DNA of 12,608 nt from Patescibacteria group bacterium (GTDB taxonomy: Bacteria > Patescibacteria > Microgenomatia > Daviesbacterales > UBA10151): positions 1-12,608 of the forward strand of contig JAMCTD010000002.1 in assembly GCA_023380995.1 (NCBI GenBank), written 5' to 3'. The notes beneath the pieces are model-generated. The model made no database searches. It was not told the DNA's origin and was given only the letters and a program-made list of their open reading frames with translations. The translations under genes and the position numbers were made by a program. Below, one piece after another: positions 1-12,608 of this stretch (positions within the stretch are counted from its first letter, which is position 1; each line of letters begins with the position of its first letter).

Positions 1-1
1 T

Positions 2-481
2 ACAAAAAGAGCTGCAGAAGTGATAGCAGAAGGTACAACAGGGGATAGGCAAGAATTTATAAATCTTATGAATGAAAAAGCAAAGCAATTAGGTATGAAG
101 GATACGTATTATGCAAATCCGACAGGTTTAGATGAAGATACCAACAATTCGTACTCAACAGTTTATGATTTAGCAATTCTCACAAGGTTTTTAGTACGCC
201 GTTATCCTCAAGTTGTAAACATTTCTTCCTCAGAACATATTTATTTACCACAAACTGAAACCCATCAGGATTACGATATGTATTCCGGCATAAACCTGCT
301 TACCACATATCCTGGTGTGGTAGGGTTTAAAACAGGCTATACCCCGGAGGCCGGACTTACTTTAATTACTTTAGTTAGAAAAGACGGCCAGGAAATAGTA
401 GGTGTGCTTTTAGGATCAGAAGATAGAAGAGATGAAGCAAGGGAGATTTTGGATTATAGTTTTAAGAAATTAGGTGTTTAA
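2..481 (+). CDS. D-alanyl-D-alanine carboxypeptidase, peptidase S11 family (5' end outside window)
   Basis: The reading frame is open from base 2, so the gene starts upstream of the window; the GTG at base 20 is an internal valine. The product is the C-terminal part of a penicillin-binding-protein-5-like serine peptidase, which removes the terminal D-Ala from peptidoglycan stem peptides outside the membrane. Visible are the segment MNEKAKQLGM followed by NPTGLD, typical of the family just after the SxN motif, and the KTG motif (bases 329-337) in GFKTGYTPEAG. The catalytic SxxK and SxN motifs would lie upstream and cannot be checked. The protein ends about 45 residues after KTG, so it lacks the C-terminal beta domain and amphipathic anchor of E. 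coli PBP5; it is a catalytic-domain-only form. The dacA/dacF-type symbol is not assigned because the family has several members. Confidence 0.93.
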   Translation, partial: TKRAAEVIAEGTTGDRQEFINLMNEKAKQLGMKDTYYANPTGLDEDTNNSYSTVYDLAILTRFLVRRYPQVVNISSSEHIYLPQTETHQDYDMYSGINLLTTYPGVVGFKTGYTPEAGLTLITLVRKDGQEIVGVLLGSEDRRDEAREILDYSFKKLGV

Positions 482-512
482 AAATATTTTATTCATAGGA
501 TGGCTCTGCTAC

Positions 513-541
513 TTGCCAGAACATTTTTAAGGTGATATATA
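513..541 (+). promoter_or_regulatory. Predicted sigma-70 promoter of the cyclophilin gene, leaderless geometry
   Basis: A -35 element TTGCCA (513-518) lies 17 bases before a -10 element TATATA (536-541) preceded by TG at 533-534 (extended -10). Only 6 bases separate the -10 from the ATG at 548, so the expected transcription start is at or next to the ATG. A Shine-Dalgarno-like AAGGTGAT (529-536) sits inside the promoter and would not be in such an mRNA. Prediction from sequence only. Confidence 0.5.
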
Positions 542-547
542 AGTTAC

Positions 548-1234
548 ATGACAAATCAGAAGATTTTAGGCGCACTTTTGATAATATTTATAATAGGGGC
601 AGGGATTTATTTTACCGCTATGAAATTCAAACAAGAAGTAAGTCAAGTATCTGTATCACCTTCTCCGTCGCCGTCTGAGTTAGGTTTTCTTTTTAACAAA
701 ACCCCGCAACCCAGTAGCGGGCAAGCAGCCCAGCAAGCAGAATTACCTTTAGCCAAAACTAAAAAACTTTCCCGTTTCCCGGGGATTTTAAAGTCAGAAC
801 TTTTAGAAAACAAAAAAGCTTTAATACAAACTGCTAAAGGAATAATTCAGCTTCAAATTTATCCTGAAGCTTCTATGGCTGCTTCCAATTTTATGGTTTT
901 GGCAGCAAACGGTTTTTATGATGGATTAACTTTTCATAGAGTAGAGCCCGGGTTTGTAATTCAGGGCGGGGATCCGGATGGAAATGGAGCAGGAGGACCA
1001 GGATACGAGTTTGCGGATGAATTGGTAACCAGAGACTACAAAAAAGGGATTGTGGCAATGGCAAATGCAGGACCGGATACTAACGGCAGTCAATTTTTTA
1101 TTATGCTTGAGGATCACCCGGAGTTGCCTAAAAAATATACCATCTTCGGGCAGGTTATTTCCGGGATGGAGGTAGTGGAAAAAATAGCGGTCGGGGATGT
1201 CATGCAAAAAGTAGTTATCCAAAATCTCAAGTAA
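548..1234 (+). CDS. Membrane-anchored cyclophilin-type peptidyl-prolyl cis-trans isomerase
   Basis: This 228-residue protein has a short N-terminus, one hydrophobic segment (about residues 6-24) that should act as an uncleaved membrane anchor, a Ser/Pro/Gln-rich spacer (about 34-66), and a cyclophilin domain (about 85-228) facing outward. Active-site residues are present: FHR at 129-131, F136 and Q139 in GFVIQGGD, and the NGSQFF block at 179-184. The position of the cyclosporin-contacting tryptophan of human cyclophilin A is a glutamate in LEDHPELPKKY, as bacterial members often lack Trp, so drug sensitivity is unlikely. By family knowledge it speeds proline isomerisation, here probably in folding of exported or envelope proteins, which fits its place after a peptidoglycan carboxypeptidase. 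The ATG at 548 is chosen because the anchor follows directly and the promoter spacing supports it. Confidence 0.93.
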   Translation: MTNQKILGALLIIFIIGAGIYFTAMKFKQEVSQVSVSPSPSPSELGFLFNKTPQPSSGQAAQQAELPLAKTKKLSRFPGILKSELLENKKALIQTAKGIIQLQIYPEASMAASNFMVLAANGFYDGLTFHRVEPGFVIQGGDPDGNGAGGPGYEFADELVTRDYKKGIVAMANAGPDTNGSQFFIMLEDHPELPKKYTIFGQVISGMEVVEKIAVGDVMQKVVIQNLK

Positions 1235-1252
1235 AGTTGATTTTATCAAAGT

Positions 1253-1299
1253 ATACAATATCTTGTATATTGACACTTTATGATATCAACATGTTATGC
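1253..1299 (+). promoter_or_regulatory. Putative tandem NrdR boxes upstream of nrdRJ
   Basis: Box 1 (1253-1268, ATACAATATCTTGTAT) is a near-perfect palindrome: ATACAA and TTGTAT are exact reverse complements around TATC, and the pairing extends one base on each side. It matches 13 of 16 positions of the NrdR-box consensus as I recall it (ACACAATATATTGTGT form). Box 2 (1284-1299, centred on the palindrome AACATGTT) is weaker, about 9 of 16. The centres are 31 bp apart, three helical turns, which is the usual arrangement of NrdR operator pairs. Box 2 touches the -10 region, so binding should block RNA polymerase and give negative autoregulation. Confidence 0.65.
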
Positions 1300-1305
1300 T
1301 ACAAT
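1270..1305 (+). promoter_or_regulatory. Predicted nrdRJ promoter
   Basis: An extended -10, TGCTACAAT (TACAAT at 1300-1305), ends 7 bases before the GTG start at 1313. The perfect -35 hexamer TTGACA (1270-1275) is 24 bases from TACAAT, too far for normal use, but 19 bases from the overlapping TATGCT (1295-1300). Either pairing gives a leader of 0 to about 6 bases. The element lies between and over the two NrdR boxes. Confidence 0.5.
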
Positions 1306-1312
1306 AGGTTTT

Positions 1313-1801
1313 GTGAAATGTCCATTCTGCCAAAGCAGTTTAAGCAAAGTAGTAGATAAAAGAGCAGTTAGCCTCCGGGGAGAGATTAGAAGACGCCGGG
1401 AGTGTTTAAAGTGCACAAAACGTTTTACTACCTATGAGATATTGGCGCAGATTGAAATTTTAGTAATAAAAAAGGATGGCAAAAGACAGCCATTTGATAG
1501 AGAGAAGTTGGCAAGAGGACTAGTAAGAGCTTTAGAAAAAAGACCTGGGGTTGATAAGGTTTCAAGCATACTGGATAGAATAGAAGGCAGGATTAGAGTT
1601 AAACGCTTACAGGAAGTTCCTTCACAAACTTTGGGTAAATGGGTTTTATCAGAACTTAAGAAAACAGACCCGATTGCTTATTTACGTTTTGCAAGTGTTT
1701 ATAGGACTTTTTCTGACCCGAAGGACTTTAGGAAAGAATTAGAAACGCGGGCTCTACTCTATGAAAAGTTAATCCACAGACAAAGTCAGTTTTGCAGGTA
1801 G
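1313..1801 (+). CDS. nrdR: Transcriptional repressor NrdR of ribonucleotide reductase genes
   Basis: The product is a 162-residue NrdR, the usual family length. It opens with a zinc ribbon with cysteines at 3, 6, 31 and 34 (KCPFC and CLKC), followed by the RRRREC and RFTTYE signatures, and then an ATP-cone domain (about residues 48-138, starting near VIKKDGKRQPFDREKL). NrdR senses the ATP/dATP balance through the cone and binds pairs of NrdR boxes to repress reductase genes. An ATG at 1280 in the same frame would add 11 residues but lies within the promoter; the GTG at 1313 gives the family-typical N-terminus V/MKCPFC. The stop codon lies 5 bases before the preferred nrdJ start, so the two genes form a tightly coupled operon. 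Confidence 0.96.
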   Translation: MKCPFCQSSLSKVVDKRAVSLRGEIRRRRECLKCTKRFTTYEILAQIEILVIKKDGKRQPFDREKLARGLVRALEKRPGVDKVSSILDRIEGRIRVKRLQEVPSQTLGKWVLSELKKTDPIAYLRFASVYRTFSDPKDFRKELETRALLYEKLIHRQSQFCR

Positions 1802-1806
1802 TTTCT

Positions 1807-4380
1807 GTGGCTAAAACTAATGGGGAATATAAAACTAATGGATTAAGCAAGAATGGCCGGACTTTTGAAACAAGGTTTGTCCCCCGTTATAAAAAAATAC
1901 CTTCCCTGCCCTCAGGTTTGCCAGAACCCACATTTTCTGAAAGCTCAAATAAAATTTTACAGGAAAGGTATCTTTTAAAGGGTGGCAATTTAGAGGTGGT
2001 GGAAACTGTGGCAGAGAGGTTTTGGCATATTGCTTATGATATTGCCTCCGGAGATTTTGATTTTGGGGTAACCCCCAAAAGTGTGGAAGATTTGGCTACC
2101 CAATTTTACAGTATGATGGTGCGCCAGGAATTTTTGCCTAACTCCCCTACCATTATGAATGCAGGTAAGCAAAATGGACTGCAATATTCAGCCTGTTTTG
2201 TGTTACCTATAGGAGATTCCCTGCCCGAGATTTTTGATTCAATCAAATATGCTGCTTTAATTCACCAAACCGGCGGAGGGACAGGATTTGCCTTTTCTAG
2301 GCTTCGTCCTGCCGGAAGTATTGTAAATACGACGGGTGGTGTGGCTTCTGGTCCGGTGTCCTTTTTAAGGGTATTTAACGCTGCTACAGAGTCTATTAAG
2401 CAAGGCGGTACCAGACGGGGAGCCAATATGGGTATTTTGCGTGTTGACCACCCGGATATTTTAGAATTTATCCGTTGTAAGGCAGAATTGGATGATTTAA
2501 ATAAGCCGATTTTTGAACGTATTGCCCCTCTTTTGCCGGATGATGCTGCCCGTGATTTCGTAAAAACTTTGCTTTTAGACAAACAGATTGCCAATTTTAA
2601 TATATCTGTGGCTGCAACTGATAAATTTATGAAGGCAGTAGAAACAGGTGAGGATTATGAACTGATTGCCCCTCACGACGGAGGAGTGGTAGGTAAACTC
2701 AATGCGAGGGAAGTATTTGATGAAATAATTGATAGGGCTTGGAAAACAGGTGACCCTGGTTTGATCTTTATCGATAGGATTAATGACTCCCCTGCCAATC
2801 CTGTATCTAAATTGGAAACAATTGAGTCTACCAATCCTTGTGGTGAACAGCCTTTGGCTCCTTGGGATGCGTGTAATTTAGGATCGATTAATTTAGGTAA
2901 ATTTGTCTTAGCAGATGGGACTGATGTGGATTGGGGCAGACTAAAGACAGTGACGCGCCTGGCAGTTCACTTTTTGGACAATGTGGTACAGACAAATCCC
3001 TATACCTTAAAACAAATTTATGATGAAGTGCATAACAACAGAAGAATTGGTTTAGGGGTAATGGGTTTTGCTGATATGCTTTTTAAACTAAAAATTCCCT
3101 ACAACTCTGATGCTGCTTTGGAATTGGCTGGGAAAATAATGTGTTTTATTAATGAAGAAGGACACAAATTATCAGAAGAATTGGCTGTGGAGCGCGGCCC
3201 ATTCCCCAATTGGGCAAATTCAATTTATGCTGATCCTAACTCCAGCGCTTTTAAAAACAGACCTCAGTCATCTGCTTACATAGGTGGAAAGCCTATTAGA
3301 AATTCCACCATTACCACAATTGCTCCAACAGGCACAATTTCCATCATCGGAGATTGCTCCTCAGGCATAGAGCCTGTGTTTGCGCTTGCTTATATCCATA
3401 AAGCCAAAGCAAAGGGTGATCAATACAGGACTTTAACCATTGCCAATCAAACTTTTACTGATATTGCCAAAAGGGAAGGATTTCACAGTGAGGATTTGGC
3501 TGCCAAAGTGTTGGAGCATGGATCTGTGAGTGGTGTTTCTGATGTACCGGAAGTTTGGCAGAAAGTTTTTGTGACAGCTCCGGAAATTGATCCAATTTGG
3601 CACGTTAAAATGCAGGCAGCTTTCCAAAACTATACAGATAATGGAGTATCCAAGACAATTAATTTGCCCAACTCTGCAACCCGTGATGACGTACAAACTG
3701 CTTATATAACAGCTTACCAAACAGGTTGTAACGGAATCACGATTTACAGGGATGGTTCAAAAAGTACACAGGTGTTAAATATCTCCTCATCTTTGAGCGG
3801 AGATAAACAAGAGTCGGCAGCTCCTGTTGCTGAAAGACCAATGATCTTAAGAGGACGGACTTATAAAATTGCCACACCTGTGGGAGAGGCTTTTATTACA
3901 GTAAACCGTGATGAAAATGACCAGCCTTTTGAAGTGTTTGTGACAGTGGGCAGGGCTGGGATGCACACCATGGCTGATGCAGAGGCTATGGGTAGGTTGG
4001 TTTCTCTGTCTTTGCGTTTGGCAAGGGGTACAAAAGAAACAGATCCTAAAGCTGTGGCAAAAAAGATCGTTGGGCAACTGAAAGGAATTGGGGGAGCCTC
4101 ACATGTGGGTTTTGGAAAAAACAGGATAATGAGTTTGGCAGACGCGATTGCCAAAGTCTTAGCAGAAGATTTAGTTCAATCACCTACTGGAGAGTCAGTT
4201 GAAACACTGCCTTTAAATCTAACAATAGATGCTGGATCTGAAAATACCGGAACAGATGATGTATTAATATCAGCTTCAGCACATTCCCAGGCAGACCTCT
4301 GTCCAGAATGTGGTTCAGTTTCCTTTGTGATGGAAGAAGGCTGTAAAAAATGTCATAGTTGTGGTTATAGCATGTGCTAA
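1807..4380 (+). CDS. nrdJ: Adenosylcobalamin-dependent (class II) ribonucleotide reductase
   Basis: This 857-residue enzyme reduces ribonucleotides to deoxyribonucleotides with adenosylcobalamin as radical source. Numbering from the GTG at 1807: PNSPTIMNAG near 111-120, redox cysteine C130 (SACFVLP), the N343-C345-E347 active-site triad in STNPCGEQP with thiyl-radical cysteine C345, partner cysteine C356 (ACNLGSINL), then APTGTISIIGDCSSGIEP near 506-523. A TSCPD domain follows (about 677-777), and the C-terminus carries C832, C835, C846, C849, C852 and C857, a zinc-ribbon or thiol-shuttle tail. There is no N-terminal ATP-cone. Residues 226-262, between DILEFIRCK and NFNISV, are about 25-30 residues longer than I expect for the family. 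The start is uncertain: TTG at 1792 overlaps nrdR, while GTG at 1807 follows the nrdR stop and has AGG eight bases upstream. Confidence 0.96.
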   Translation: MAKTNGEYKTNGLSKNGRTFETRFVPRYKKIPSLPSGLPEPTFSESSNKILQERYLLKGGNLEVVETVAERFWHIAYDIASGDFDFGVTPKSVEDLATQFYSMMVRQEFLPNSPTIMNAGKQNGLQYSACFVLPIGDSLPEIFDSIKYAALIHQTGGGTGFAFSRLRPAGSIVNTTGGVASGPVSFLRVFNAATESIKQGGTRRGANMGILRVDHPDILEFIRCKAELDDLNKPIFERIAPLLPDDAARDFVKTLLLDKQIANFNISVAATDKFMKAVETGEDYELIAPHDGGVVGKLNAREVFDEIIDRAWKTGDPGLIFIDRINDSPANPVSKLETIESTNPCGEQPLAPWDACNLGSINLGKFVLADGTDVDWGRLKTVTRLAVHFLDNVVQTNPYTLKQIYDEVHNNRRIGLGVMGFADMLFKLKIPYNSDAALELAGKIMCFINEEGHKLSEELAVERGPFPNWANSIYADPNSSAFKNRPQSSAYIGGKPIRNSTITTIAPTGTISIIGDCSSGIEPVFALAYIHKAKAKGDQYRTLTIANQTFTDIAKREGFHSEDLAAKVLEHGSVSGVSDVPEVWQKVFVTAPEIDPIWHVKMQAAFQNYTDNGVSKTINLPNSATRDDVQTAYITAYQTGCNGITIYRDGSKSTQVLNISSSLSGDKQESAAPVAERPMILRGRTYKIATPVGEAFITVNRDENDQPFEVFVTVGRAGMHTMADAEAMGRLVSLSLRLARGTKETDPKAVAKKIVGQLKGIGGASHVGFGKNRIMSLADAIAKVLAEDLVQSPTGESVETLPLNLTIDAGSENTGTDDVLISASAHSQADLCPECGSVSFVMEEGCKKCHSCGYSMC

Positions 4381-4394
4381 ATAGGATCCTTCTA

Positions 4395-4424
4395 TTGACA
4401 GACAAAAGAATTTATAGGTATAGT
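4395..4424 (+). promoter_or_regulatory. Strong predicted sigma-70 promoter of the small membrane protein gene
   Basis: A perfect -35 hexamer TTGACA (4395-4400), an 18-base spacer and a -10 hexamer TATAGT (4419-4424) form one of the best promoters in the window. Seven bases separate the -10 from the ATG at 4432. The GTG at 4423, which would lengthen the reading frame by three codons, lies inside the -10 itself and is therefore unlikely to be the start. Confidence 0.65.
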
Positions 4425-4431
4425 GAAGATG

Positions 4432-4782
4432 ATGTTTAGCCATCTATTGGATTTCTCTTATAAAAGAAGTTTTGTGCAAGCCCTCGGTTTTTATTTCTTC
4501 TATTGGCTGTTGATAGTATTAATAGCTTTTTTGATAGGAGCAATTATGGGTTTAGTAACTGGGGTAAATGATGCTAAAATAGGATTTTCGTCTGGTTTAA
4601 GAATAGGTGTGATTGTTGCTATAATAGCTTGTCTCTTGCTTTCATTTCTTATTTTAAAGAATAAAAACAGACTTAGTGATCCTTTGTCTCTGGTTTTATT
4701 TGTTTTAGCAGGGATACTCGCTATTTTTGGAGGAGCTTTACTTGGTTTAATTCCTGTTGCTTACCTTTCTACTAGGAAATAA
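4432..4782 (+). CDS. Small three-helix membrane protein of unknown function
   Basis: I cannot assign a function. From the ATG at 4432 the product has 116 residues: a short polar N-terminus with the aromatic and basic run FSYKRSFVQALGFYFFYW, and three predicted membrane helices at about 18-43, 55-75 and 85-111, with short loops and a basic C-terminus (STRK). Glycines and small residues are frequent in the helices. It is preceded by its own strong promoter, 51 bases after nrdJ and 50 bases before the adenosyltransferase gene, so it sits between two genes tied to cobalamin. A role in cobalamin handling would be guilt by association only. Proteins with a similar FSYKR-x-QA-x-GFY opening are, from memory, common in Patescibacteria. 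ATG at 4429 is an alternative start. Confidence 0.8.
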   Translation: MFSHLLDFSYKRSFVQALGFYFFYWLLIVLIAFLIGAIMGLVTGVNDAKIGFSSGLRIGVIVAIIACLLLSFLILKNKNRLSDPLSLVLFVLAGILAIFGGALLGLIPVAYLSTRK

Positions 4783-4795
4783 TAGCTCCCATTTT

Positions 4796-4826
4796 TTGTC
4801 AAACTTTAGTTTTTCTATGTTAAAAT
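4796..4826 (+). promoter_or_regulatory. Predicted promoter of the cob(I)alamin adenosyltransferase gene, leaderless geometry
   Basis: TTGTCA (4796-4801) lies 19 bases before an extended -10, TGTTAAAAT (TAAAAT at 4821-4826). Six bases remain before the ATG at 4833, so the transcript should start at or beside that codon. No Shine-Dalgarno sequence precedes the ATG. The core TATGnTAnAAT matches the nrdR promoter (TATGCTACAAT there, TATGTTAAAAT here). Confidence 0.55.
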
Positions 4827-4832
4827 CAGCTC

Positions 4833-5366
4833 ATGAGTGAGGAAAAAGGGTTGGTAATTGTTTATACTGGTGAAGGAAAAGGAAAAACTACTGCTGCTTT
4901 GGGACTGGTTTTAAGGGCTGTGGGATATAAAAAGAAATGTTTGATAGTCCAATTTGGTAAAATCTGGTTTACTGGTGAGCTTGAAGGAGTAAAAAAACTT
5001 GCTCCTTTTGTGAAATTTATCCAGGGAGGTAAGGGGTTTGTTAAAATTTTAGGTGATAAATTACCTTTAAAAGAGCACAAGCAAGCTGCAAAGAAAACCT
5101 TTGATACTTTATCCAAAGAAGTAAAATCCAATAGATGGGATGTAGTGGTAGCAGATGAGATAGTAGGTGCAGTTTCATCTGGCTTGCTTCCAGAAAACCT
5201 AGTTGTGAGTTTAATTACAGATAAACCTTATAGCTTGGATTTAATATTAACAGGCCATCATGCATCTGAAAAGTTAATAGAGATGGCAGATTTGGTAACT
5301 GAAATGAAAGAGGTAAAACACCCTTACCAGAAAGGAATTTTAGCAAAAAAGGGTCTTGACTTTTAG
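4833..5366 (+). CDS. cobO: Cob(I)alamin adenosyltransferase, CobA/CobO/BtuR family
   Basis: The 177-residue protein transfers the adenosyl group of ATP to cobalt in reduced corrinoids, giving adenosylcobalamin. The P-loop GEGKGKTTAALG occupies residues 13-24, a Walker-B-like VVVADEI is at 104-110, LTGHHAS is at 139-145 (family LTGR-type motif), and the diagnostic C-terminus runs from DLVTEMKEVKHPYQKGI to the final KKGLDF. The length matches the family, so the gene is intact. Its product is the cofactor used by NrdJ, encoded two genes upstream, which gives a clear reason for the neighbourhood. No other cobalamin synthesis gene is present here, so the likely role is activation of salvaged corrinoid. 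Depending on database it may be named cobA, cobO or btuR. Confidence 0.93.
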   Translation: MSEEKGLVIVYTGEGKGKTTAALGLVLRAVGYKKKCLIVQFGKIWFTGELEGVKKLAPFVKFIQGGKGFVKILGDKLPLKEHKQAAKKTFDTLSKEVKSNRWDVVVADEIVGAVSSGLLPENLVVSLITDKPYSLDLILTGHHASEKLIEMADLVTEMKEVKHPYQKGILAKKGLDF

Positions 5367-5384
5367 CACTCGGAGTGATATTCT
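5356..5384 (+). promoter_or_regulatory. Predicted promoter of lon
   Basis: TTGACT (5356-5361), overlapping the last codons of the adenosyltransferase gene, lies 17 bases before TATTCT (5379-5384), which has TG at 5376-5377. The start codon is 18 bases beyond, giving a leader of about 12 bases without a Shine-Dalgarno motif. A second -10-like TAATAC with TG upstream (5387-5392) would shorten the leader to about 4 bases. Confidence 0.45.
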
Positions 5385-5402
5385 GCTAATACTTCAAAAC
5401 AT

Positions 5403-7823
5403 ATGGCTGATTTAATTAGACCCAACATAAATGAACCTTTGAGATTGAAACCAACCATGCCTGTTGGTCCCCTGCGTGATACAGTAATTTTTCCGGGTAA
5501 TTCAGTTCCTATTGTATCCGGCAGGTCAAAATCTAAGGCTGCCTTGGATGTGGCGTGGAATTCAGATAAATTAATAGTTTTCGTTACCCAAAAGAACTCT
5601 AAAATTGAAGACCCGGCAGAAAAGGATCTTTATAAAGTTGGAACAGTCTGTTTGATAAGAAGAGTAGTTAAAAATCCTGAAGGAGAATATACCTTGCAGG
5701 CAGAGGGTATTTCCAGAGTTTACCTTAAAAATTTCACGCAAGTTAGCCCTTATTTGGAGGCAGAAATAGAAGAAATCCCGGAATTATATGAGAAAAACGA
5801 ACAAACAGAAGCTTTAATCAGGACAGTCAGGGAACAAGTTAAGCGTTACCTGGAATTAGGGGGTAATCCTTTCTTTGATCAAAGTAATTTTGCCAATTGG
5901 TCCCTTTTTACCTACAGTGATGACCCCAACCAATTAGTTAACTCCATTGCCCAAGCTATAGATTTTAAAACCATAGACAAACAGCAAATTTTAGAAATGG
6001 TTTCTGCTGCCGAACGTTTACAAAGGCTTTCTGAACTTTTGGCAAAAGAAATAAGAATTTTAGAAATCTCCCAAAAAATCTCATCACAAACTCAAGAAAG
6101 GGTTTCTAAGATGACGAAAGAAGCCATTTTAAGGGAGCAGATGAAAAGTATTGAGGAAGAGCTGGGAGGGGCAGATACAGAACATCAGGAAATTAGGGAA
6201 TTTGAGCTTAAAATTAAAAAAGCTGGTATGCCTAAGGAGGTTTTAGAGCGGGCCAGAAAAGAGTTAGCAAGGCTGTCTAAGATGTCTTCTTATAATCCAG
6301 AGGCAGGTTATATAAGGAATTATTTGGAATGGTTAACAGATCTTCCCTGGAGGCTTAGTAAAAGAGGCAGGATTGATCTGAAAAAAGCAGAAGGGATTTT
6401 AGAAGAAGACCACTACGGCCTTAAGAAAGTGAAAGAAAGAATTATAGAATATTTGGCTGTTTTTAAGTTGGCAGGCAAGATGAGAGGACCTATCCTTTGT
6501 TTTGTCGGCCCTCCGGGTACTGGTAAAACCTCAATTGGTAAATCAATTGCCAAGGCATTAGGCAGAAAATTTGTCAAAATCTCCCTTGGAGGAATCAGGG
6601 ATGAGGCAGAAATAAGAGGACACAGGAGAACTTATGTAGGTTCTATGCCAGGTAGAATTATCCAGGGGATAAAACAGGCAGGGACTACCAACCCAGTTTT
6701 TATGCTGGATGAGATTGATAAAATTGGCATGGATTACAGGGGTGACCCTTCAGCAGCTTTGCTTGAAGCATTAGACCCTGAACAAAATGAAGGGTTTTCT
6801 GACCATTACCTGGAAGTTTCTTATGACCTTTCCAATGTGATGTTTATCACAACAGCCAATATTTTGGATACTATCCCCCCAGCTTTAAGGGATAGGCTTG
6901 AGATTATCAGGTATCCTGGTTATACAGAAGATGAGAAATTCCAAATTGCCAAAAAGTTCTTAATTCCAAGACAAGTAGAAAACCATGGTTTAAAAACTAA
7001 TCAAATAGAGCTTGAAGATGAGGCTGTGCGTTCTATTATCAGAGGGTATACCAGGGAAGCTGGAGTTAGAAATCTGGAAAGAGAAATTTCAGCAGTCCTA
7101 AGAAAAGTAGCAAGAAAGATCGCAGAAGGCAATAAGTCCCGCAAATTCACAATTACTGCCGAAGATATTCATACTTTCTTAGGGCCTATTAAATTCTTGC
7201 CTATTTTGGCAGAAAAATCTGATGAAATTGGAATGGTGACAGGCCTGTCTGTAACTGAGGCTGGAGGAGAAGTATTATTTATCGAGGTTACTTTAATGCC
7301 TGGAAGAGGCAATCTACTTTTAACAGGACAACTGGGTGATGTAATGAAAGAATCAGGTCAGGCAGCCTTGTCTTATGTGAGGGCTCATTTTGCCAGCTTG
7401 GGATTGCCGGAGAGATTTTTCCAAAAAGTAGATGTGCATGTTCATGTTCCGGAAGGGGCAATCCCTAAAGACGGGCCTTCAGCTGGTATTGCTTTAACCA
7501 CAGCTATTGTGTCTGCTTTTACCAAAATCCCTGTACATAAGGAAGTAGCTATGACAGGTGAAGTAACTTTAAGAGGTAGAGTTTTAGAGATTGGTGGGTT
7601 TAAGGAGAAAGTTTTGGCAGCCCACAGGGCAGGAGTAAAAACAATAATAGCTCCTGCAGATAATGAAAAAGATATGGAAGATATTCCAGATTATGTGCAA
7701 AAAGACTTAAAGTTTGTTTTTGTCAAACACATGGATGAGGTGCTAAAAGTAGCTTTGGTTAAACCTCCACAACCAGCCTCACGCAGGCGCATACCAGCTC
7801 CTCCTCCAGCCTATCTGGCTTAA
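5403..7823 (+). CDS. lon: ATP-dependent protease Lon
   Basis: This is a full-length 806-residue LonA-type protease, a hexameric ATP-driven machine that degrades misfolded and regulatory cytoplasmic proteins. The N-terminal substrate-binding domain spans about 18-215 (starting [13 protein letters not shown]), followed by a helical region to about 355. The AAA+ module has Walker A GPPGTGKT at 369-376, Walker [10 protein letters not shown] at 432-440 and a sensor region with [16 protein letters not shown]. The protease domain carries the Ser-Lys dyad S693 (KDGPSAG) and K736 (GGFKEK), spaced 43 residues as in E. coli Lon. A short Pro/Arg-rich tail (about 788-803) ends the protein. The ATG at 5403 is the only reasonable start and lacks a Shine-Dalgarno sequence. 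The gene has its own promoter and no visible link to its neighbours. Confidence 0.98.
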
Positions 7824-7850
7824 AGGATGAAGAATTTGTACAGCTGCCTC

Positions 7851-7879
7851 TTGACTAATCTTATAGCCTATTGTAGATT
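7851..7879 (+). promoter_or_regulatory. Predicted promoter of hppA
   Basis: TTGACT (7851-7856), a 17-base spacer and TAGATT (7874-7879) form a standard sigma-70-like promoter in the lon-hppA gap. Transcription would start near 7886, leaving a leader of about 18-19 bases. This leader (CTCAATAAATTTTC just before the ATG) has no Shine-Dalgarno motif. Confidence 0.5.
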
Positions 7880-7904
7880 TTAAATACTGCCTCAATAAAT
7901 TTTC

Positions 7905-9908
7905 ATGAATTTCATAGTAAATAACGCAAACTTAATCATTTGGGCTGCCGTAGTAGCTGCTTTAGCATATGGCTTTTGGCTGGTTATTGATGTTCTAAAA
8001 AGAGACTCCGGTGATGAAAAAATGAAGGAGATTGCTTCAGCCATCCAAATTGGAGCAGCAGCTTACTTACAAAGACAATACAAAGTTGTGGCGCTTGTGG
8101 CTATAGCTTTAACAATTTTAATCTATTTTGCCTTAGGCCAAAATACTGCTGTTGGTTTTTTGGTTGGAGCAGTGCTGTCCGGGCTGGCTGGATTTATTGG
8201 TATGAGTGTAGCTGTAAGGGCAAATGTCAGGGTGGCAGAAGAAGCTAAAAAGGGCTTATCAGAGGCTTTTTCTTTGGCCTACAAAGGCGGGGCAGTAACA
8301 GGATTTTTGGTGGTAGGTTTGGCTTTGGCTGCAGTTTTTGGTTTTTATCAGTACACAGGTGGGGATTTAAAATCTTTGATTGGTTTAGGGTTTGGAGGGT
8401 CGCTGATTAGTGTTTTCGCCAGGCTTGGAGGAGGGATATTTACCAAAGGGGCAGATGTGGGAGCTGATTTGGTAGGGAAACTGGAGATGAGTATTCCTGA
8501 AGATGATCCCAGAAACCCGGCGGTGATAGCTGATAATGTAGGAGATAATGTGGGTGATGATGCCGGAATGGCAGCGGATATTTTTGAAACATATCTTGTT
8601 ACTGCTATTGCAGCCATGATTTTGGGACAATTGCTTTTTCCAGGTTTCTCAAGTGCAGTAATTTTTCCTCTTCTGATATTGGCTATGGGAATTTTTGCTT
8701 CAGTGATAGGATCCTTCTTTGTAAAGCTAACAGGCAAAAACATAATGAAGGCACTTTACCGCGGTATGATAGTAACTGCCGTTTTTTGTGCAATTTTATT
8801 TTATCCGGTGACAAGTAGCTTGATGGGTGGTAATGGTACTTTTTCAACTTTTAATTTATACCTTGCCAGTTTAATCGGGGTGTTGGTTACGGCAGGAATG
8901 GTTTTGATTACAGAATATTATACAGGTACTCAGTATGCACCTGTTCAAAATCTGGCAAACGCTTCAAAAACCGGACATGCAACCAATATTATTGCCGGAT
9001 TGGCCTTATCTATGCGTTCAACTTTTTGGCCGATAATTTTGATCTCTGCAGCAGTTATACTGAGTTTTCTTTTTGCCGGTCTTTATGGAATAGCTTTAGC
9101 CGGAGTGACGATGCTTTCTTTGGCAGGAATTGTGGTGGCAATAGATGCTTTTGGCCCTATTACTGACAATGCAGGCGGTATAGCTGAAATGGCCAATCTT
9201 CCTGCAAAAGTCCGTGGCGTGACAGATCCTTTGGATGCAGTGGGCAATACTACTAAAGCAGTTACCAAAGGTTATGCCATCGGTTCTGCTGCTTTGGCAG
9301 CCATGGTTTTGTTTTCCGCATACGCCCAGGAGTTTTCAGGCTCAAATGAGTTAAGTTTTTCTTTATCTGATCCTAAAGTTTTAGTGGGTCTTTTTGTTGG
9401 TGGGTCGTTGCCATATTTATTTGCTTCTTTTGCTATGGAGGCAGTGGGTAAGGCAGGCGGGGCAGTTGTGGAGGAAGTAAGAAGGCAATTTAAAACTATT
9501 AAAGGGATAATGGAAGGGACGGCCAAGCCAGATTATGCAAAGTGTGTTGCTATTGTCACTTCTTCAGCGCAAAAACAAATGTTAGTGCCTGCTTTAATTC
9601 CTGTTTTGTCCCCGGTGATTGTTGGTTTTGCTTTGGGACCGGTTGCTTTGGGCGGAATGCTAGTAGGGTCAATTGTTACAGGTATTTTTGTGGCAGTTTC
9701 TATGACGACAGGAGGAGCTGCCTGGGATAATGCAAAAAAGTATATAGAGAGCGGAAAATTGGGCGGGAAGGGCAGCGACGCTCACAAAGCAGCAGTAACT
9801 GGGGATACAGTAGGCGATCCATATAAAGATACGGCGGGTCCAGCAATTAATCCCATGATTAAAGTGGTAAATATTGTCGCATTACTTCTGGTTCCATTCT
9901 TAAGATAA
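7905..9908 (+). CDS. hppA: Membrane-bound proton-translocating pyrophosphatase, K+-independent type
   Basis: The 667-residue integral membrane enzyme hydrolyses pyrophosphate and pumps ions, most likely protons, out of the cytoplasm. It has about 16 hydrophobic helices, the usual number. The substrate-binding signature is clear: DVGADLVGK at 184-192, [20 protein letters not shown] at 199-218, a second acidic site with [16 protein letters not shown] at 414-429, and [14 protein letters not shown] near 634-647. The cation-dependence motif reads [16 protein letters not shown] with K451 and T454, where K+-dependent enzymes carry Ala and Gly. By published family work this lysine replaces K+, so the pump should be K+-independent, a group known to move protons. 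The residue after NVGD, often Cys in bacteria, is D219. Its role would be to recover energy from pyrophosphate released by biosynthesis. Confidence 0.97.
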
Positions 9909-9931
9909 ATTCAGAAATTGATAATTATTTA

Positions 9932-10327
9932 TTAAGAAGCAGGTTGGGTGTTGAAAAGGGCTTTTTTTACCTCATCAACAATTTGATCAGGAGTATAAGA
10001 TGTTTTAATCAGATAGGCCTGGGCTCCTAATTTGAACCCTTCTTTAATAATTGCTTCTTGGCCAAGATGAGTAAGTAAGATGGTAATCATTGGTGAGGAG
10101 GGATTTTGAGTTTTAAATTCCCTTAAAAGCTGTAAACCATTCATTCCCGGAAGCATGATATCTAAAAGAAGCAGGTCAAAGGTTTCATTTTTCAAGATTT
10201 CCAAGCCTTCATCTCCTGCTGTTGCAGTTTTAACAGAGAGATTTGCTTTAGTTAGTTGTCTAAGATATAACTCTCTAACAAAATCATCATCTTCAACCAG
10301 TAATATTTTTTTAGTAGATCCATCCAT
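9932..10327 (-). CDS. Single-domain response regulator (second of tandem pair)
   Basis: The 131-residue protein is a receiver domain alone, with no DNA-binding or enzymatic output domain. Acidic pocket D13-D14 (LVEDDDF), phosphoacceptor D56 in LLLLDIMLPGMNG, the switch threonine T86 and the conserved lysine K108 (AYLIK) are all present, so it should be phosphorylated normally. It starts 6 bases after the stop of the upstream receiver gene and has no Shine-Dalgarno motif, so translation is probably coupled. It is the last gene of a minus-strand unit: histidine kinase, receiver, receiver. Residues 41-86 are identical to the neighbour, while residues 1-40 differ at 14 positions. Its output must be a protein-protein contact, as with CheY-like or Spo0F-like proteins; partner unknown. 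Confidence 0.93.
   Translation of the reverse strand: MDGSTKKILLVEDDDFVRELYLRQLTKANLSVKTATAGDEGLEILKNETFDLLLLDIMLPGMNGLQLLREFKTQNPSSPMITILLTHLGQEAIIKEGFKLGAQAYLIKTSYTPDQIVDEVKKALFNTQPAS
10086..10207. repeat. 122-bp direct repeat, copy 1 (within second receiver gene)
   Basis: This block is identical base for base to 10509-10630 (constant offset 423). It encodes residues 41-81 of the receiver, from GLEILKN through the phosphorylation site. The bases immediately beyond it on both sides differ between copies, including silent sites, so the identity is bounded. Confidence 0.97.
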
Positions 10328-10333
10328 AATGGT

Positions 10334-10750
10334 TTATTGCTTAATAATTTGATTTGAAATAGGAGGTTGGCTACCGAAGAGCGCATTTTTTACCTCGCTG
10401 ACAACTTGATCCGGAGTATAGGAGGCTTTTATGAGATAGGCTTGAGCGCCTAATTCAAATCCTTCCTTGATTACAGCTTCCTGGCCTAAATTGGTCAGAA
10501 GTATGGTGATCATTGGTGAGGAGGGATTTTGAGTTTTAAATTCCCTTAAAAGCTGTAAACCATTCATTCCCGGAAGCATGATATCTAAAAGAAGCAGGTC
10601 AAAGGTTTCATTTTTCAAGATTTCCAAGCCGGCCAGTCCATCAACCGCGTTTTTAACTACTAAACCTGCCTTGGTAAGCTGTCTGGTATACAACTCCCTT
10701 ATAAAATCCTCATCCTCTACGAGCAGGATTTTTTTAACAGCTGGTTCCAT
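10334..10750 (-). CDS. Single-domain response regulator (first of tandem pair)
   Basis: This 138-residue stand-alone receiver closely resembles the gene that follows it. It has the acidic pair in VEDEDF (D13-E14-D15 region), phosphoacceptor D56 in LDIMLPG, T86 and K108 (AYLIK). The C-terminus is extended past the last helix by a polar tail ending NQIIKQ that the paralogue lacks. The gene begins 41 bases beyond the kinase stop codon and has its own predicted promoter there, so it may be made without the kinase. Tandem receivers behind one kinase suggest either a branched output or a phosphate sink, as known for some CheY pairs; which applies cannot be read from the sequence. Confidence 0.93.
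   Translation of the reverse strand: MEPAVKKILLVEDEDFIRELYTRQLTKAGLVVKNAVDGLAGLEILKNETFDLLLLDIMLPGMNGLQLLREFKTQNPSSPMITILLTNLGQEAVIKEGFELGAQAYLIKASYTPDQVVSEVKNALFGSQPPISNQIIKQ
10509..10630. repeat. 122-bp direct repeat, copy 2 (within first receiver gene)
   Basis: Second copy of the block at 10086-10207, with no mismatch over 122 bases. Outside it the two genes align without gaps over most of their length but with many differences, so this is a homogenised core within an older duplication rather than a mobile repeat. Confidence 0.97.
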
Positions 10751-10765
10751 ATCTTTATAATAATC

Positions 10766-10795
10766 AGTATATCAACTCTTCATAAGCTTGGTCAA
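10766..10795 (-). promoter_or_regulatory. Predicted internal promoter for the receiver pair
   Basis: On the minus strand, TTGACC (10795-10790) lies 18 bases before TATACT (10771-10766), 5 of 6 matches in each hexamer. The -35 contains the TGA stop codon of the kinase gene. The ATG at 10750 is 15 bases beyond the -10, predicting a leader of about 8-9 bases without a Shine-Dalgarno sequence. Confidence 0.6.
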
Positions 10796-12324
10796 TAATT
10801 CAAAGTTCCTGATTGAATAGCTTGAGAGATAAATTTGTTAGTGTCTAAAATTCCAGTATTTTGCATTATGATTGGTAAGGTGAAGAAAAACCTGCTTCCT
10901 TTGCCTACTTCAGACTGTACCCAAATTCTACCACGGAGCTTTTCAATAATGGATTTGGTAATATACAATCCTAAACCAGTTCCTTTATTTGCTTTTTGCA
11001 GGCGGCTGGAAACCCTAAAAAATTTATTAAAAAGATGAGGCATTGCTTCTTGGGGTATACCAATGCCTGTATCGGAGACAATAGTTGTTACCTCTGTAAG
11101 CGATATTTTTACAGTAATTTCTACCTTTCCGCCCGGGTTTGTATAATTTATGGCATTTGATAAAAGATTAGTGATTACTTCGCCTAAACGTATCGGATCA
11201 GCTAATATCTTAGGTAAATTTTTTCCCGGAGTGATTAAAGATAAAACAATATTCTTTTGATTGGCTTGGTTTCTTAAGTCTTCAATTGCTTTGGAAAGTA
11301 TGGCAAAGTAGTCGACCGGTTCGAGAGAAATAGACAATTGCTCCCGTTCTATTTTATTAACACTTAATAAATTGGCAATTAGTGTTTGAAGCTGTTGAGC
11401 AGCAATAAAAGCTTTGTCTAAAAGAGGCAAACTGTCCTTGGGAATTTTGTCTTTTGTCTCATTAAGAAACACTGATAGATAACCGATAATACTGGTAAGA
11501 GGTGTTTTAAGCTCGTGTGACGCCATTGATACAAAATCTAATTTCATTTGTTCCAATTCTTCTTCTCTGGATAAGTCATGCAGGATTACAATACAACTTA
11601 AGTTAGTTTGTATAGCAGTACCAACCTGTGTTGTTATTAAGTTAACTTTTGTTTGCTTCCCTCTTTTGCCAATAAGCTTTGCAGTTTGATTAAAATTTCC
11701 CCGGCAATAAGTTTTAGGTAGGATTTCCTCCTGTTCTGAAAGAAAGTGAATAACTTGATCTACAGGTCTTCCGTAAACTTCAGCTTCATTGTAACCGGTT
11801 AACTCTCTTGAGACTTTATTTAAAAAAATTATATTTTTATTAAAGTCTAAAGCTATAATGCCATCTATTACTGAAGAAAGAATTTCGTTTAACTTACTAT
11901 TTTCTAAGATGGCAATATGTTGTTCCCCTTCAAGTCGCTGAAAGGCTTTAGAGAGTTTGTCTGCCATAAAATTAAATGCATTGCCCACATCTTCAAGCTC
12001 GTCACCTGATTTTATATCAACACGTTGGTTAAAGTTGCCATTTGAGAGACTTTCAGCACTTGTTACCAGATTACTAAGTGGTTTTAACAAATAAAACAAA
12101 AGTATTACAGATATAATTGCACTAATAAAAACTGTAAGGATTAAAAGCTGTGGGGTTAAAGGGTACAGCAAACTAAGAAGGTACGGAGAGAATATCGTTA
12201 ATATGGAAATTATGGCAATTTTTAAATGAAGAATGTGTCTGTTTGTCCGCTTAGTCCGTTGCACCTTGCCTTGGGCTGGTATTGGTGGAAGGCGAACAGG
12301 CGGTCTATTAGCCCCTTGTTCCAT
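10792..12324 (-). CDS. Membrane-bound hybrid-free sensor histidine kinase (HAMP-PAS-HisKA-HATPase)
   Basis: From the ATG at 12324 the product has 510 residues. After a basic, proline-rich cytoplasmic start come two membrane helices (about 32-54 and 59-80) joined by only a few residues, so there is essentially no extracellular sensor. A HAMP linker follows (about 78-131), then a PAS domain (about 145-253), a HisKA domain with H270 in MASHELKTPLTSI, and a HATPase domain with N-box NLLSNAINYT (N390), G1 box DTGIGIP (418-424) and G2 box GTGLGL (448-453). All catalytic motifs are intact. Sensing is thus probably in the membrane or in the cytoplasmic PAS domain. The two following receivers are the obvious partners. 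A TTG at 12360 would add 12 residues, but it coincides with the likely -35 element; the ATG fits the promoter spacing seen elsewhere in the window. Confidence 0.93.
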   Translation of the reverse strand: MEQGANRPPVRLPPIPAQGKVQRTKRTNRHILHLKIAIISILTIFSPYLLSLLYPLTPQLLILTVFISAIISVILLFYLLKPLSNLVTSAESLSNGNFNQRVDIKSGDELEDVGNAFNFMADKLSKAFQRLEGEQHIAILENSKLNEILSSVIDGIIALDFNKNIIFLNKVSRELTGYNEAEVYGRPVDQVIHFLSEQEEILPKTYCRGNFNQTAKLIGKRGKQTKVNLITTQVGTAIQTNLSCIVILHDLSREEELEQMKLDFVSMASHELKTPLTSIIGYLSVFLNETKDKIPKDSLPLLDKAFIAAQQLQTLIANLLSVNKIEREQLSISLEPVDYFAILSKAIEDLRNQANQKNIVLSLITPGKNLPKILADPIRLGEVITNLLSNAINYTNPGGKVEITVKISLTEVTTIVSDTGIGIPQEAMPHLFNKFFRVSSRLQKANKGTGLGLYITKSIIEKLRGRIWVQSEVGKGSRFFFTLPIIMQNTGILDTNKFISQAIQSGTLNY

Positions 12325-12331
12325 AATCTTC

Positions 12332-12360
12332 AGCGTATCAGAAGCAAAATTACTAATCAA
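12332..12360 (-). promoter_or_regulatory. Predicted histidine kinase promoter, leaderless geometry
   Basis: On the minus strand TTGATT (12360-12355) lies 17 bases before TACGCT (12337-12332), which has an extended TG upstream; 7 bases then lead to the ATG at 12324. The -10 hexamer is weak (3 of 6), so the call rests on the spacing and the TG. Read-through from the tRNA gene upstream is also possible. Confidence 0.4.
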
Positions 12361-12387
12361 CCCTAAGTATTATTTAGTAATCTAAAG

Positions 12388-12461
12388 TACCGCGTAGGGG
12401 AGTTGAACCCCTGATTTCCGGAATGAGAATCCGATGTCCTAGGCCACTAGACGAACGCGGC
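12388..12461 (-). tRNA. tRNA-Glu, anticodon CUC
   Basis: The 74-base gene folds into a complete cloverleaf: acceptor GCCGCGT/ACGCGGT, D arm GTCT/GGAC, anticodon stem TCGGA/TCCGG with loop TTCTCAT (anticodon CTC, bases 34-36), variable region AAATC, and T arm AGGGG/CCCCT with loop TTCAACT. The D arm and the TTCGTCTAG...GGCCTAGGAC block are typical of tRNA-Glu. It reads GAG codons. The discriminator base is A and CCA is not encoded, so the tail must be added by tRNA nucleotidyltransferase. The first acceptor pair is G1-U72, a wobble pair in place of the usual G-C. Confidence 0.96.
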
Positions 12462-12470
12462 GTGAGTCAA

Positions 12471-12479
12471 ATTATATCA
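12471..12479 (-). promoter_or_regulatory. Predicted tRNA-Glu promoter (extended -10)
   Basis: On the minus strand TGATATAAT (12479-12471) contains a perfect -10 hexamer TATAAT with the extended TG. It ends 9 bases before the mature 5' end of the tRNA, so the primary transcript should have only about 2-3 extra 5' bases. I see no clear -35 hexamer at the right distance. Confidence 0.6.
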
Positions 12480-12608
12480 TTTTGTGAGAGATATTACTGA
12501 CGAGTCTGGTACATAACTAGATCTATCTTATCCCAGCAATCCAAAACCCTTTTAAGATGTAGCAAATCAAGGCCAGATATGTATTTTTAGCAAAGTTTAA
12601 TATTCCCC
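12480..12608. other. Window end without a supported gene
   Basis: These 129 bases hold no convincing gene. One minus-strand frame is open from the window edge to a stop at 12523-12525 (27 codons, ending FWIAGIR) and could be the 3' tail of a gene beyond the window, but it is too short to judge. Confidence 0.4.

Follow-up and report, generated by a model that had tools for sequence, protein, structure and literature searches.

Where does transcription begin when a promoter lies almost against the gene that it serves? This question is raised by a 12,608-nucleotide (nt) stretch of Patescibacteria DNA (GenBank contig JAMCTD010000002.1, positions 1 to 12,608; the whole stretch is hereafter called the window). 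An earlier note on this DNA had listed five start codons that are each preceded by a -10-like hexamer ending 6 or 7 bases upstream, and had proposed that mRNAs lacking a 5′ leader may be the default of the organism. The evidence presented here points to leaderless initiation as a major mode in the Daviesbacteria, the closest relatives of the window, where it would operate beside Shine-Dalgarno (SD) initiation. We give this reading a probability of roughly 85%. That leaderless initiation is the default mode is not proven.

Spacing and character of the near-start hexamers in Daviesbacteria

The nearest match to the lon gene of the window is a Candidatus Daviesbacteria lon (Patescibacteria/Candidate Phyla Radiation (CPR); locus L001, 90% identity), and of 145 loci that were confirmed, the 80 best were retained. 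Genome-wide tests were conducted with three Daviesbacteria relatives: G009 (a complete chromosome, 800 of 820 kb), G001 (760 kb) and G002 (740 kb). Throughout, Nx denotes the number of bases between the end of the -10 hexamer and the start codon.

When the position of the -10 hexamer is plotted relative to the start codon across these genomes, as the earlier note had proposed, an excess is evident at N6-8 with a sharp edge at 6. Using naive starts, TANNNT is found at N6 in 13.2-13.7% of genes of the three relatives versus ~3% at distant positions. With first-ATG starts, hexamers carrying one mismatch or less to TATAAT occur at N6 in 62/672, 51/622 and 53/615 genes, where 9.9, 7.4 and 9.0 are expected per position (p from 2e-24 to 1e-29), and the counts at N5 are 10, 9 and 16. 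The edge is sharp, we reason, because a promoter cannot move any closer to its gene once the transcription start has reached the start codon.

A start-aware mixture model, in which one component describes the -10 and the other the SD site, was seeded on the three genomes together. It assigns a -10 at N5-8 to 34.8, 33.7 and 30.7% of 727, 698 and 681 genes (2.5, 1.4 and 0.8% when shuffled), and an SD site at N4-12 to 20.2, 22.0 and 25.1% (shuffled 2.8-4.1%). An unseeded two-motif search recovers TATAAT at N6-7 in G001 and G002. Under the model, Daviesbacteria differ from the purely SD-led Oceanobacillus control, which yields a -10 at N5-8 in 0.2% of genes and an SD site in 93.3%. The values for E. 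coli are 0.9% and 69.5% with 35 genes, and 1.9% and 64.5% with 116 genes, and the -10 values of both controls fall below those of their shuffles.

Hexamers resembling a -10 can be generated anywhere by AT-rich intergenic DNA, and chance therefore had to be weighed as an explanation. Within the window, a promoter scan returns 36 sites compared with 30.3 in shuffles, and TATATA before the gene at 548 is weak (score 0.9, lacking the near-invariant last T). However, the positional excess in three genomes and the conservation of the spacing in orthologs, described below, make this explanation barely credible, and for Daviesbacteria as a group it is rejected. Individual hexamers, for instance those before 548 or 12324, may nevertheless be chance matches.

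The near-start hexamers also look like real promoter elements, comprising -35 and extended -10 sequences, when their surroundings are considered. Of 584 confident genes, 23.8% have a -35 hexamer beginning with TTG at a distance of 16-18 nt, compared to 4.1% elsewhere and 6.6% of 332 SD genes. The extended -10 triplet TGn precedes the hexamer in 45% of 310 N6, 40% of 173 N7 and 33% of 97 N8 genes, versus 7.5% of SD genes, and a pyrimidine occupies position -1 of the start codon in 77% of the N6 genes versus 45%, as would be expected if transcription began on the purine that follows. Similar differences are observed without the model (TGn in 184/532 versus 72/1283, -35 in 118/532 versus 79/1283, pyrimidine at -1 in 68% versus 55%). 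Among the Oceanobacillus and E. coli controls, 16 starts carry such a hexamer, with TGn in one and a -35 in one.

Gene arrangement is also informative. An opposite-strand upstream neighbour is accompanied by a -10 at N5-8 in 46.8% of genes and an SD site in 13.3% (n = 510), and the corresponding values are 40.4 and 15.7% for same-strand gaps of 31-100 nt (364), 41.7 and 13.6% for gaps of 6-30 nt (251), and 15.2 and 37.9% for overlaps or gaps of 5 nt or less (604). The 37.9% at overlapping genes suggests that SD sites mark tightly coupled genes.

An alternative is that the hexamers serve as a non-SD signal for ribosome binding or for opening structure, as in Bacteroidetes, with the real promoters located further upstream. 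An AT-rich box near -10 is possible without leaderless transcription, according to PMC5397173, and some sampled lineages exhibit no SD excess. However, a ribosome signal would explain neither the -35 at 16-18 nt, nor TGn, nor the edge at N6, nor the rarity of these hexamers at overlapping genes, and we regard this alternative as quite improbable.

The preferred reading is that sigma-70-type promoters (TTGACA, ~17 nt, often TGn, TATAAT) lie so near the gene that transcription would begin at the start codon's first base or at a position adjoining it. The 5′-terminal AUG or GUG would then be recognized directly, instead of through SD pairing, and leaderless translation would follow. This mode would be used mostly at genes that need a promoter of their own, and SD initiation mostly at genes that overlap an upstream neighbour. 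The position of the promoters and their conservation are direct observations, from which the predicted transcription start follows by the usual distance between a -10 and its start site.

Several results weigh against so large a role. Starts that were fixed by orthology with no use of upstream information (drawn from 426 and 365 reciprocal best pairs; unique starts only, 225 and 158 kept) give a smaller excess at N5-8: 34.7% versus 15.8% (n = 101), 24.2% versus 12.5% (124), 32.9% versus 18.5% (70) and 29.5% versus 10.9% (88). The positive control, D. radiodurans MP1, is weak at 2.3% versus 0.7% shuffled (SD 32.4%, 103 genes; TANNNT at N6 in 4/108 where 0.6 is expected), so the absolute sensitivity of the approach is unproven. 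The unseeded search in G009 returned a -35 and an AT-rich motif but no TATAAT. Genes with same-strand gaps of more than 100 nt score lower (32.0% -10, 23.1% SD, n = 372) than the 6-30 nt class, contrary to a simple first-gene rule, which suggests that some such genes carry longer leaders; moreover, the starts behind the counts by gene arrangement and behind the -35 share of the 584 confident genes were picked by the same mixture model. Among lon and hppA orthologs, the best -10 falls at N5-8 in 4/29 and 7/29, respectively, no better than chance (4.1 each). SD sites are retained at 20-25% of Daviesbacteria genes, and two factors that act in favour of leadered mRNAs are kept as well: IF3 (8/8 relatives) and bS21 (8/8, with 7 above the cut-off).

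From these data, the orthology-fixed starts (an excess of 12-19 points) and the model (31-35%) probably bracket the real leaderless share. Thus, the part of the earlier proposal that makes leaderless initiation a major mode in the closest relatives is upheld by the spacing excess and the model, whereas its extension to ‘most genes’ is not, given about one-third of genes by the model, fewer by the stricter test, the retained SD sites, and lon and hppA leadered in most orthologs.

With regard to the remaining translation machinery, a protein with several S1 domains is present in 7/8 relatives, and G001 gives single-domain matches only. The 3′ end of 16S keeps CCTCC in 10 of the 13 loci read (L081, L083, L090, L232-L238) and was not located in the other three (L082, L084 and L239). 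The anti-SD is likewise intact in Bacteroidetes and Cyanobacteria. As judged from these genes, no feature of the machinery forces leaderless initiation, and the two modes coexist.

Candidate leaderless and leadered genes of the window

The window encodes, by Pfam, the end of a D-Ala-D-Ala carboxypeptidase, a cyclophilin PPIase, NrdR, the large chain of ribonucleotide reductase, the corrinoid adenosyltransferase BtuR/CobO, Lon, an H+-pyrophosphatase, a receiver domain (the scan covered one of two receivers) and a histidine kinase, and the protein genes are followed by a tRNA-Glu. All five -10 hexamers and spacers of the earlier note are present as it had written them (Table 1), as are its four -35 hexamers (TTGCCA, TTGACA, TTGTCA and TTGATT, at gaps of 17, 18, 19 and 17) and the more distant -10 elements of lon, hppA and the first receiver gene, for which it had predicted short leaders.

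Table 1. Promoter elements and start codons of eight genes in the window (TGn triplets read by eye from the sequence).
Gene	Positions	Strand	-35	-10	Start codon and leader
Cyclophilin-type PPIase (548-1234)	513..548	+	TTGCCA 513-518, gap 17	TGA + TATATA 536-541 (N6)	ATG 548
nrdR	1253..1313	+	TTGACA 1270-1275	TATGCT 1295-1300 (N12); TGC + TACAAT 1300-1305 (N7)	GTG 1313
Small membrane-like open reading frame	4395..4434	+	TTGACA 4395-4400, gap 18	TATAGT 4419-4424	ATG 4432 (N7) or in-frame ATG 4429 (N4)
btuR/cobO	4796..4835	+	TTGTCA 4796-4801, gap 19	TGT + TAAAAT 4821-4826 (N6)	ATG 4833
lon	5356..5405	+	TTGACT 5356-5361	TGA + TATTCT 5379-5384 (N18)	ATG 5403; leader about 12 nt
hppA	7851..7907	+	TTGACT 7851-7856	TAGATT 7874-7879 (N25)	ATG 7905; leader ~19 nt
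First receiver	10748..10795	-	TTGACC 10790-10795, gap 18	TGA + TATACT 10766-10771 (N15); TATTAT 10757-10762 (N6)	ATG 10750
Histidine kinase	12322..12360	-	TTGATT 12355-12360, gap 17	TGA + TACGCT 12332-12337 (N7)	ATG 12324

With a -10 matrix learned from the relatives, 5/10 window starts have an N6/N7 -10 with a score of at least 2, versus 1.14 in mononucleotide shuffles (P = 0.0045), and 3/10 do so at score 3 (P = 0.037). These five are not the five named originally: the gene at 548 drops out and the first receiver enters, the latter by virtue of a TATTAT at N6 that was absent from the original list and scores 4.6. TGn is present in 6/8 window promoters (4e-6 by a binomial test against the 7.5% of control genes). 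For a test of conservation, the best -10 was located upstream of orthologs from 33 Daviesbacteria-type loci, and the number at N5-8 was compared with the shuffled expectation. Six window genes had orthologs suited to this test, and the conserved spacing supports a leaderless reading for four of them.

The clearest single leaderless candidate is btuR: the best -10 falls at N5-8 in 19/27 orthologs (shuffled 3.8), 21/27 carry TGn and 26/27 have a pyrimidine at -1. The other three are nrdR (14/27, shuffled 3.7), the receiver (15/24, shuffled 3.3) and the PPIase gene (11/19, shuffled 2.9). The nrdR TTGACA is 24 nt from TACAAT and 19 nt from the overlapping TATGCT, and these two -10 options predict a leader of 0 or about 5 nt. 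Only three upstream regions were available for histidine kinase orthologs, too few for a spacing test, and the small open reading frame at 4432 matches no Pfam family and has no ortholog in the 55 loci searched. From the near-start promoters, the mRNAs of nrdR, btuR, the kinase and the PPIase gene, and probably that of the small open reading frame, are predicted to lack a 5′ leader or to have one only a few bases long.

It might be argued that these promoters are real but that transcription starts a few bases downstream, in which case the actual start codon would be internal to the predicted gene. Transcription start sites can shift by some bases, and another ATG follows closely in several genes (e.g. 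4429/4432). However, the alignment of NrdR to the Pfam zinc ribbon begins at the first position of both protein and profile, and the protein must therefore start no later than GTG 1313; likewise, btuR orthologs share a start with N6 spacing and its upstream pyrimidine. On this evidence, we consider an internal start very improbable as a general explanation, and favour initiation at the predicted start codons.

Additional sequence features accompany several of these genes. The sequence GGTGAT (531-536) before the PPIase gene is SD-like but overlaps its TGn -10. By eye, ~12/19 PPIase orthologs start one codon further upstream (ATG-TTT-ACN-AAT, corresponding to window positions 545-550), so start and -10 appear to have moved together. 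Just upstream of the nrdR -35 is a palindrome, ATACAATATCTTGTAT (1253-1268), which resembles an NrdR box. A similar sequence is present in several orthologs, and autoregulation of nrdR-nrdJ through this palindrome is likely. The nrdJ reading frame (region 1761-1801) is open only from TTG 1792, and most orthologs seem by eye to start at an ATG ~30 nt upstream; the window has an ATG at 1761, 31 nt upstream of the TTG and out of frame. Either the start has moved, or there is a one-base difference or assembly error. The receiver genes form a tandem pair of very similar CheY-like genes (9932-10750), and both queries match one single gene in relatives, which suggests a recent duplication.

The two leadered genes carry features of their own. 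An element of the form TTAGCACTC-N9-TTCTGCTAA (5363-5389) overlaps the lon -10 and resembles an operator of the CIRCE (controlling inverted repeat of chaperone expression) type. CIRCE-like elements, defined by a loose pattern, occur upstream of lon in 31/33 Daviesbacteria orthologs, which suggests HrcA-type heat-shock control of lon. Upstream of hppA, TAAATT, TAAACT or TACATT is present at N24-28 in 15/29 orthologs, and the short leader (7880-7904) is conserved by eye (CTGCCTC..TTTTC before ATG) and contains no SD site. In L009, L016, L042 and L055 the leader is lost and the -10 lies at N7-8; hppA may be one gene that switches between a leadered and a leaderless form.

Other Patescibacteria and known leaderless systems

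In 192 genomes sampled from the phylum, exact TATAAT-N6-ATG was compared with TATAAT-N12-ATG, and the two patterns gave 4758 and 1860 matches, respectively (1975 for the reversed pattern). N6 was greater in 173 genomes, equal in 7 and smaller in 12, and the difference is significant in 100/192 at 5% false discovery. In the G001 family, 45/45 genomes exceed the reversed control (1649 versus 545), and 61 Bacillota genomes give a ratio of only 1.19 (1926 versus 1621). There is no excess of the exact pattern in the Woesebacteria genome G012 (24 versus 28 reversed) or in G011 (14 versus 19). The reversed control GTA-N6-TAATAT exceeds the pattern in G085, G126 and G140 (52, 39 and 34 versus 16, 24 and 25).

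Gene-level pools outside Daviesbacteria comprise 29-89 genes each. A -10 is assigned to 24.5% of genes in Curtissbacteria G010 (shuffled 2.6%), where an unseeded search returned no -10 but one motif resembling SD and a weak one rich in T, and to 11.1% in named Curtissbacteria loci (3.8%), 24.6% in a mixed Levy/Gottesman/Roizman/Beckwith pool (6.6%) and 28.6% in G180 (2.1%). Woesebacteria loci yield 31.2% (3.5%) with SD at 3.1% (4.9%), and a gene-level count in five Woesebacteria loci finds N6 in 10/89 where 0.9 is expected. The G085 values are 37.8% (6.1%) for the -10 and 1.5% (3.7%) for SD. At the 16S 3′ end (L233), G085 has ATTACCTCCTTTC and others have ATCACCTCCTTTC; G085 has no SD excess. 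In G079, coding-score gene calls are poor (29 genes) and give 5.3% versus 3.8% shuffled for the -10 and 27.4% versus 16.9% for SD, whereas an ATG-only count gives N6 in 6/43 (expected 0.4) and SD in 4 versus 5; the two approaches give different answers on SD.

Lineages lacking SD sites are a lead only, given the size of these pools. A wider reading, which we consider less likely than not, is that leaderless initiation is principal and probably old across Patescibacteria, and that the Woesebacteria pool, G085 and perhaps G079 are nearly devoid of SD sites while keeping the CCUCC anti-SD, with most mRNAs that have their own promoters being leaderless there.

In GeneMarkS-2, bacterial genomes with both leaderless and SD genes are designated class C. 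PMC9581028 presents GeneMarkS-2 as a program that models leaderless genes, and reports leaderless and SD genes mixed within the genome of Mycobacterium tuberculosis, as proposed here for Daviesbacteria; its main text nowhere contains the word Patescibacteria. A close likeness is to Deinococcus-Thermus, for which PMC12340547 reports TANNNT 6-7 bp before the open reading frame in nearly one-third of genes, beside a class with a GGAG ribosome site, and interprets the motif, which is conserved in homologs, as a sign of leaderless mRNA. Daviesbacteria share the fixed 6-7 nt spacing in many genes plus an SD class, but belong to another phylum with a different base composition, and their TGn and -35 elements are measurably enriched. 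The Deinococcus-Thermus case draws on RNA-seq and reporter work, the present one on genome sequences. The non-SD initiation of Bacteroidetes and Cyanobacteria resembles the present case in its AT-rich signal upstream of starts (PMC5397173). However, Daviesbacteria retain a genome-wide SD signal (N4-12, 20-25% versus 3-4% shuffled), and their AT-rich signal appears to be a promoter with -35 and TGn.

The term leaderless is confined to reference titles in PMC6851277 and PMC7441243, and to a remark on YchF and one reference in PMC12641178. No report on leaderless genes in Patescibacteria, CPR, Saccharibacteria, Parcubacteria or Microgenomates was found in the literature covered, in which most papers were judged by their listing and which excludes most subscription journals and preprints. 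The proposed mechanism is a known, Deinococcus-like one, in a phylum for which this literature yielded no description of it.

Patescibacteria represent a large and mostly uncultured share of bacterial diversity, and gene predictions are the chief source of what is known about them. If leaderless genes are frequent among them, a promoter-aware model would be needed to annotate their start codons, N-termini and signal peptides. Promoters would also be readable directly from the genome, including the NrdR-box-like and CIRCE-like operators that lie over them, and in reporter constructs the promoter would have to be handled together with the start codon as a single unit. These organisms may likewise offer a system in which to ask why a small genome retains two modes of initiation.

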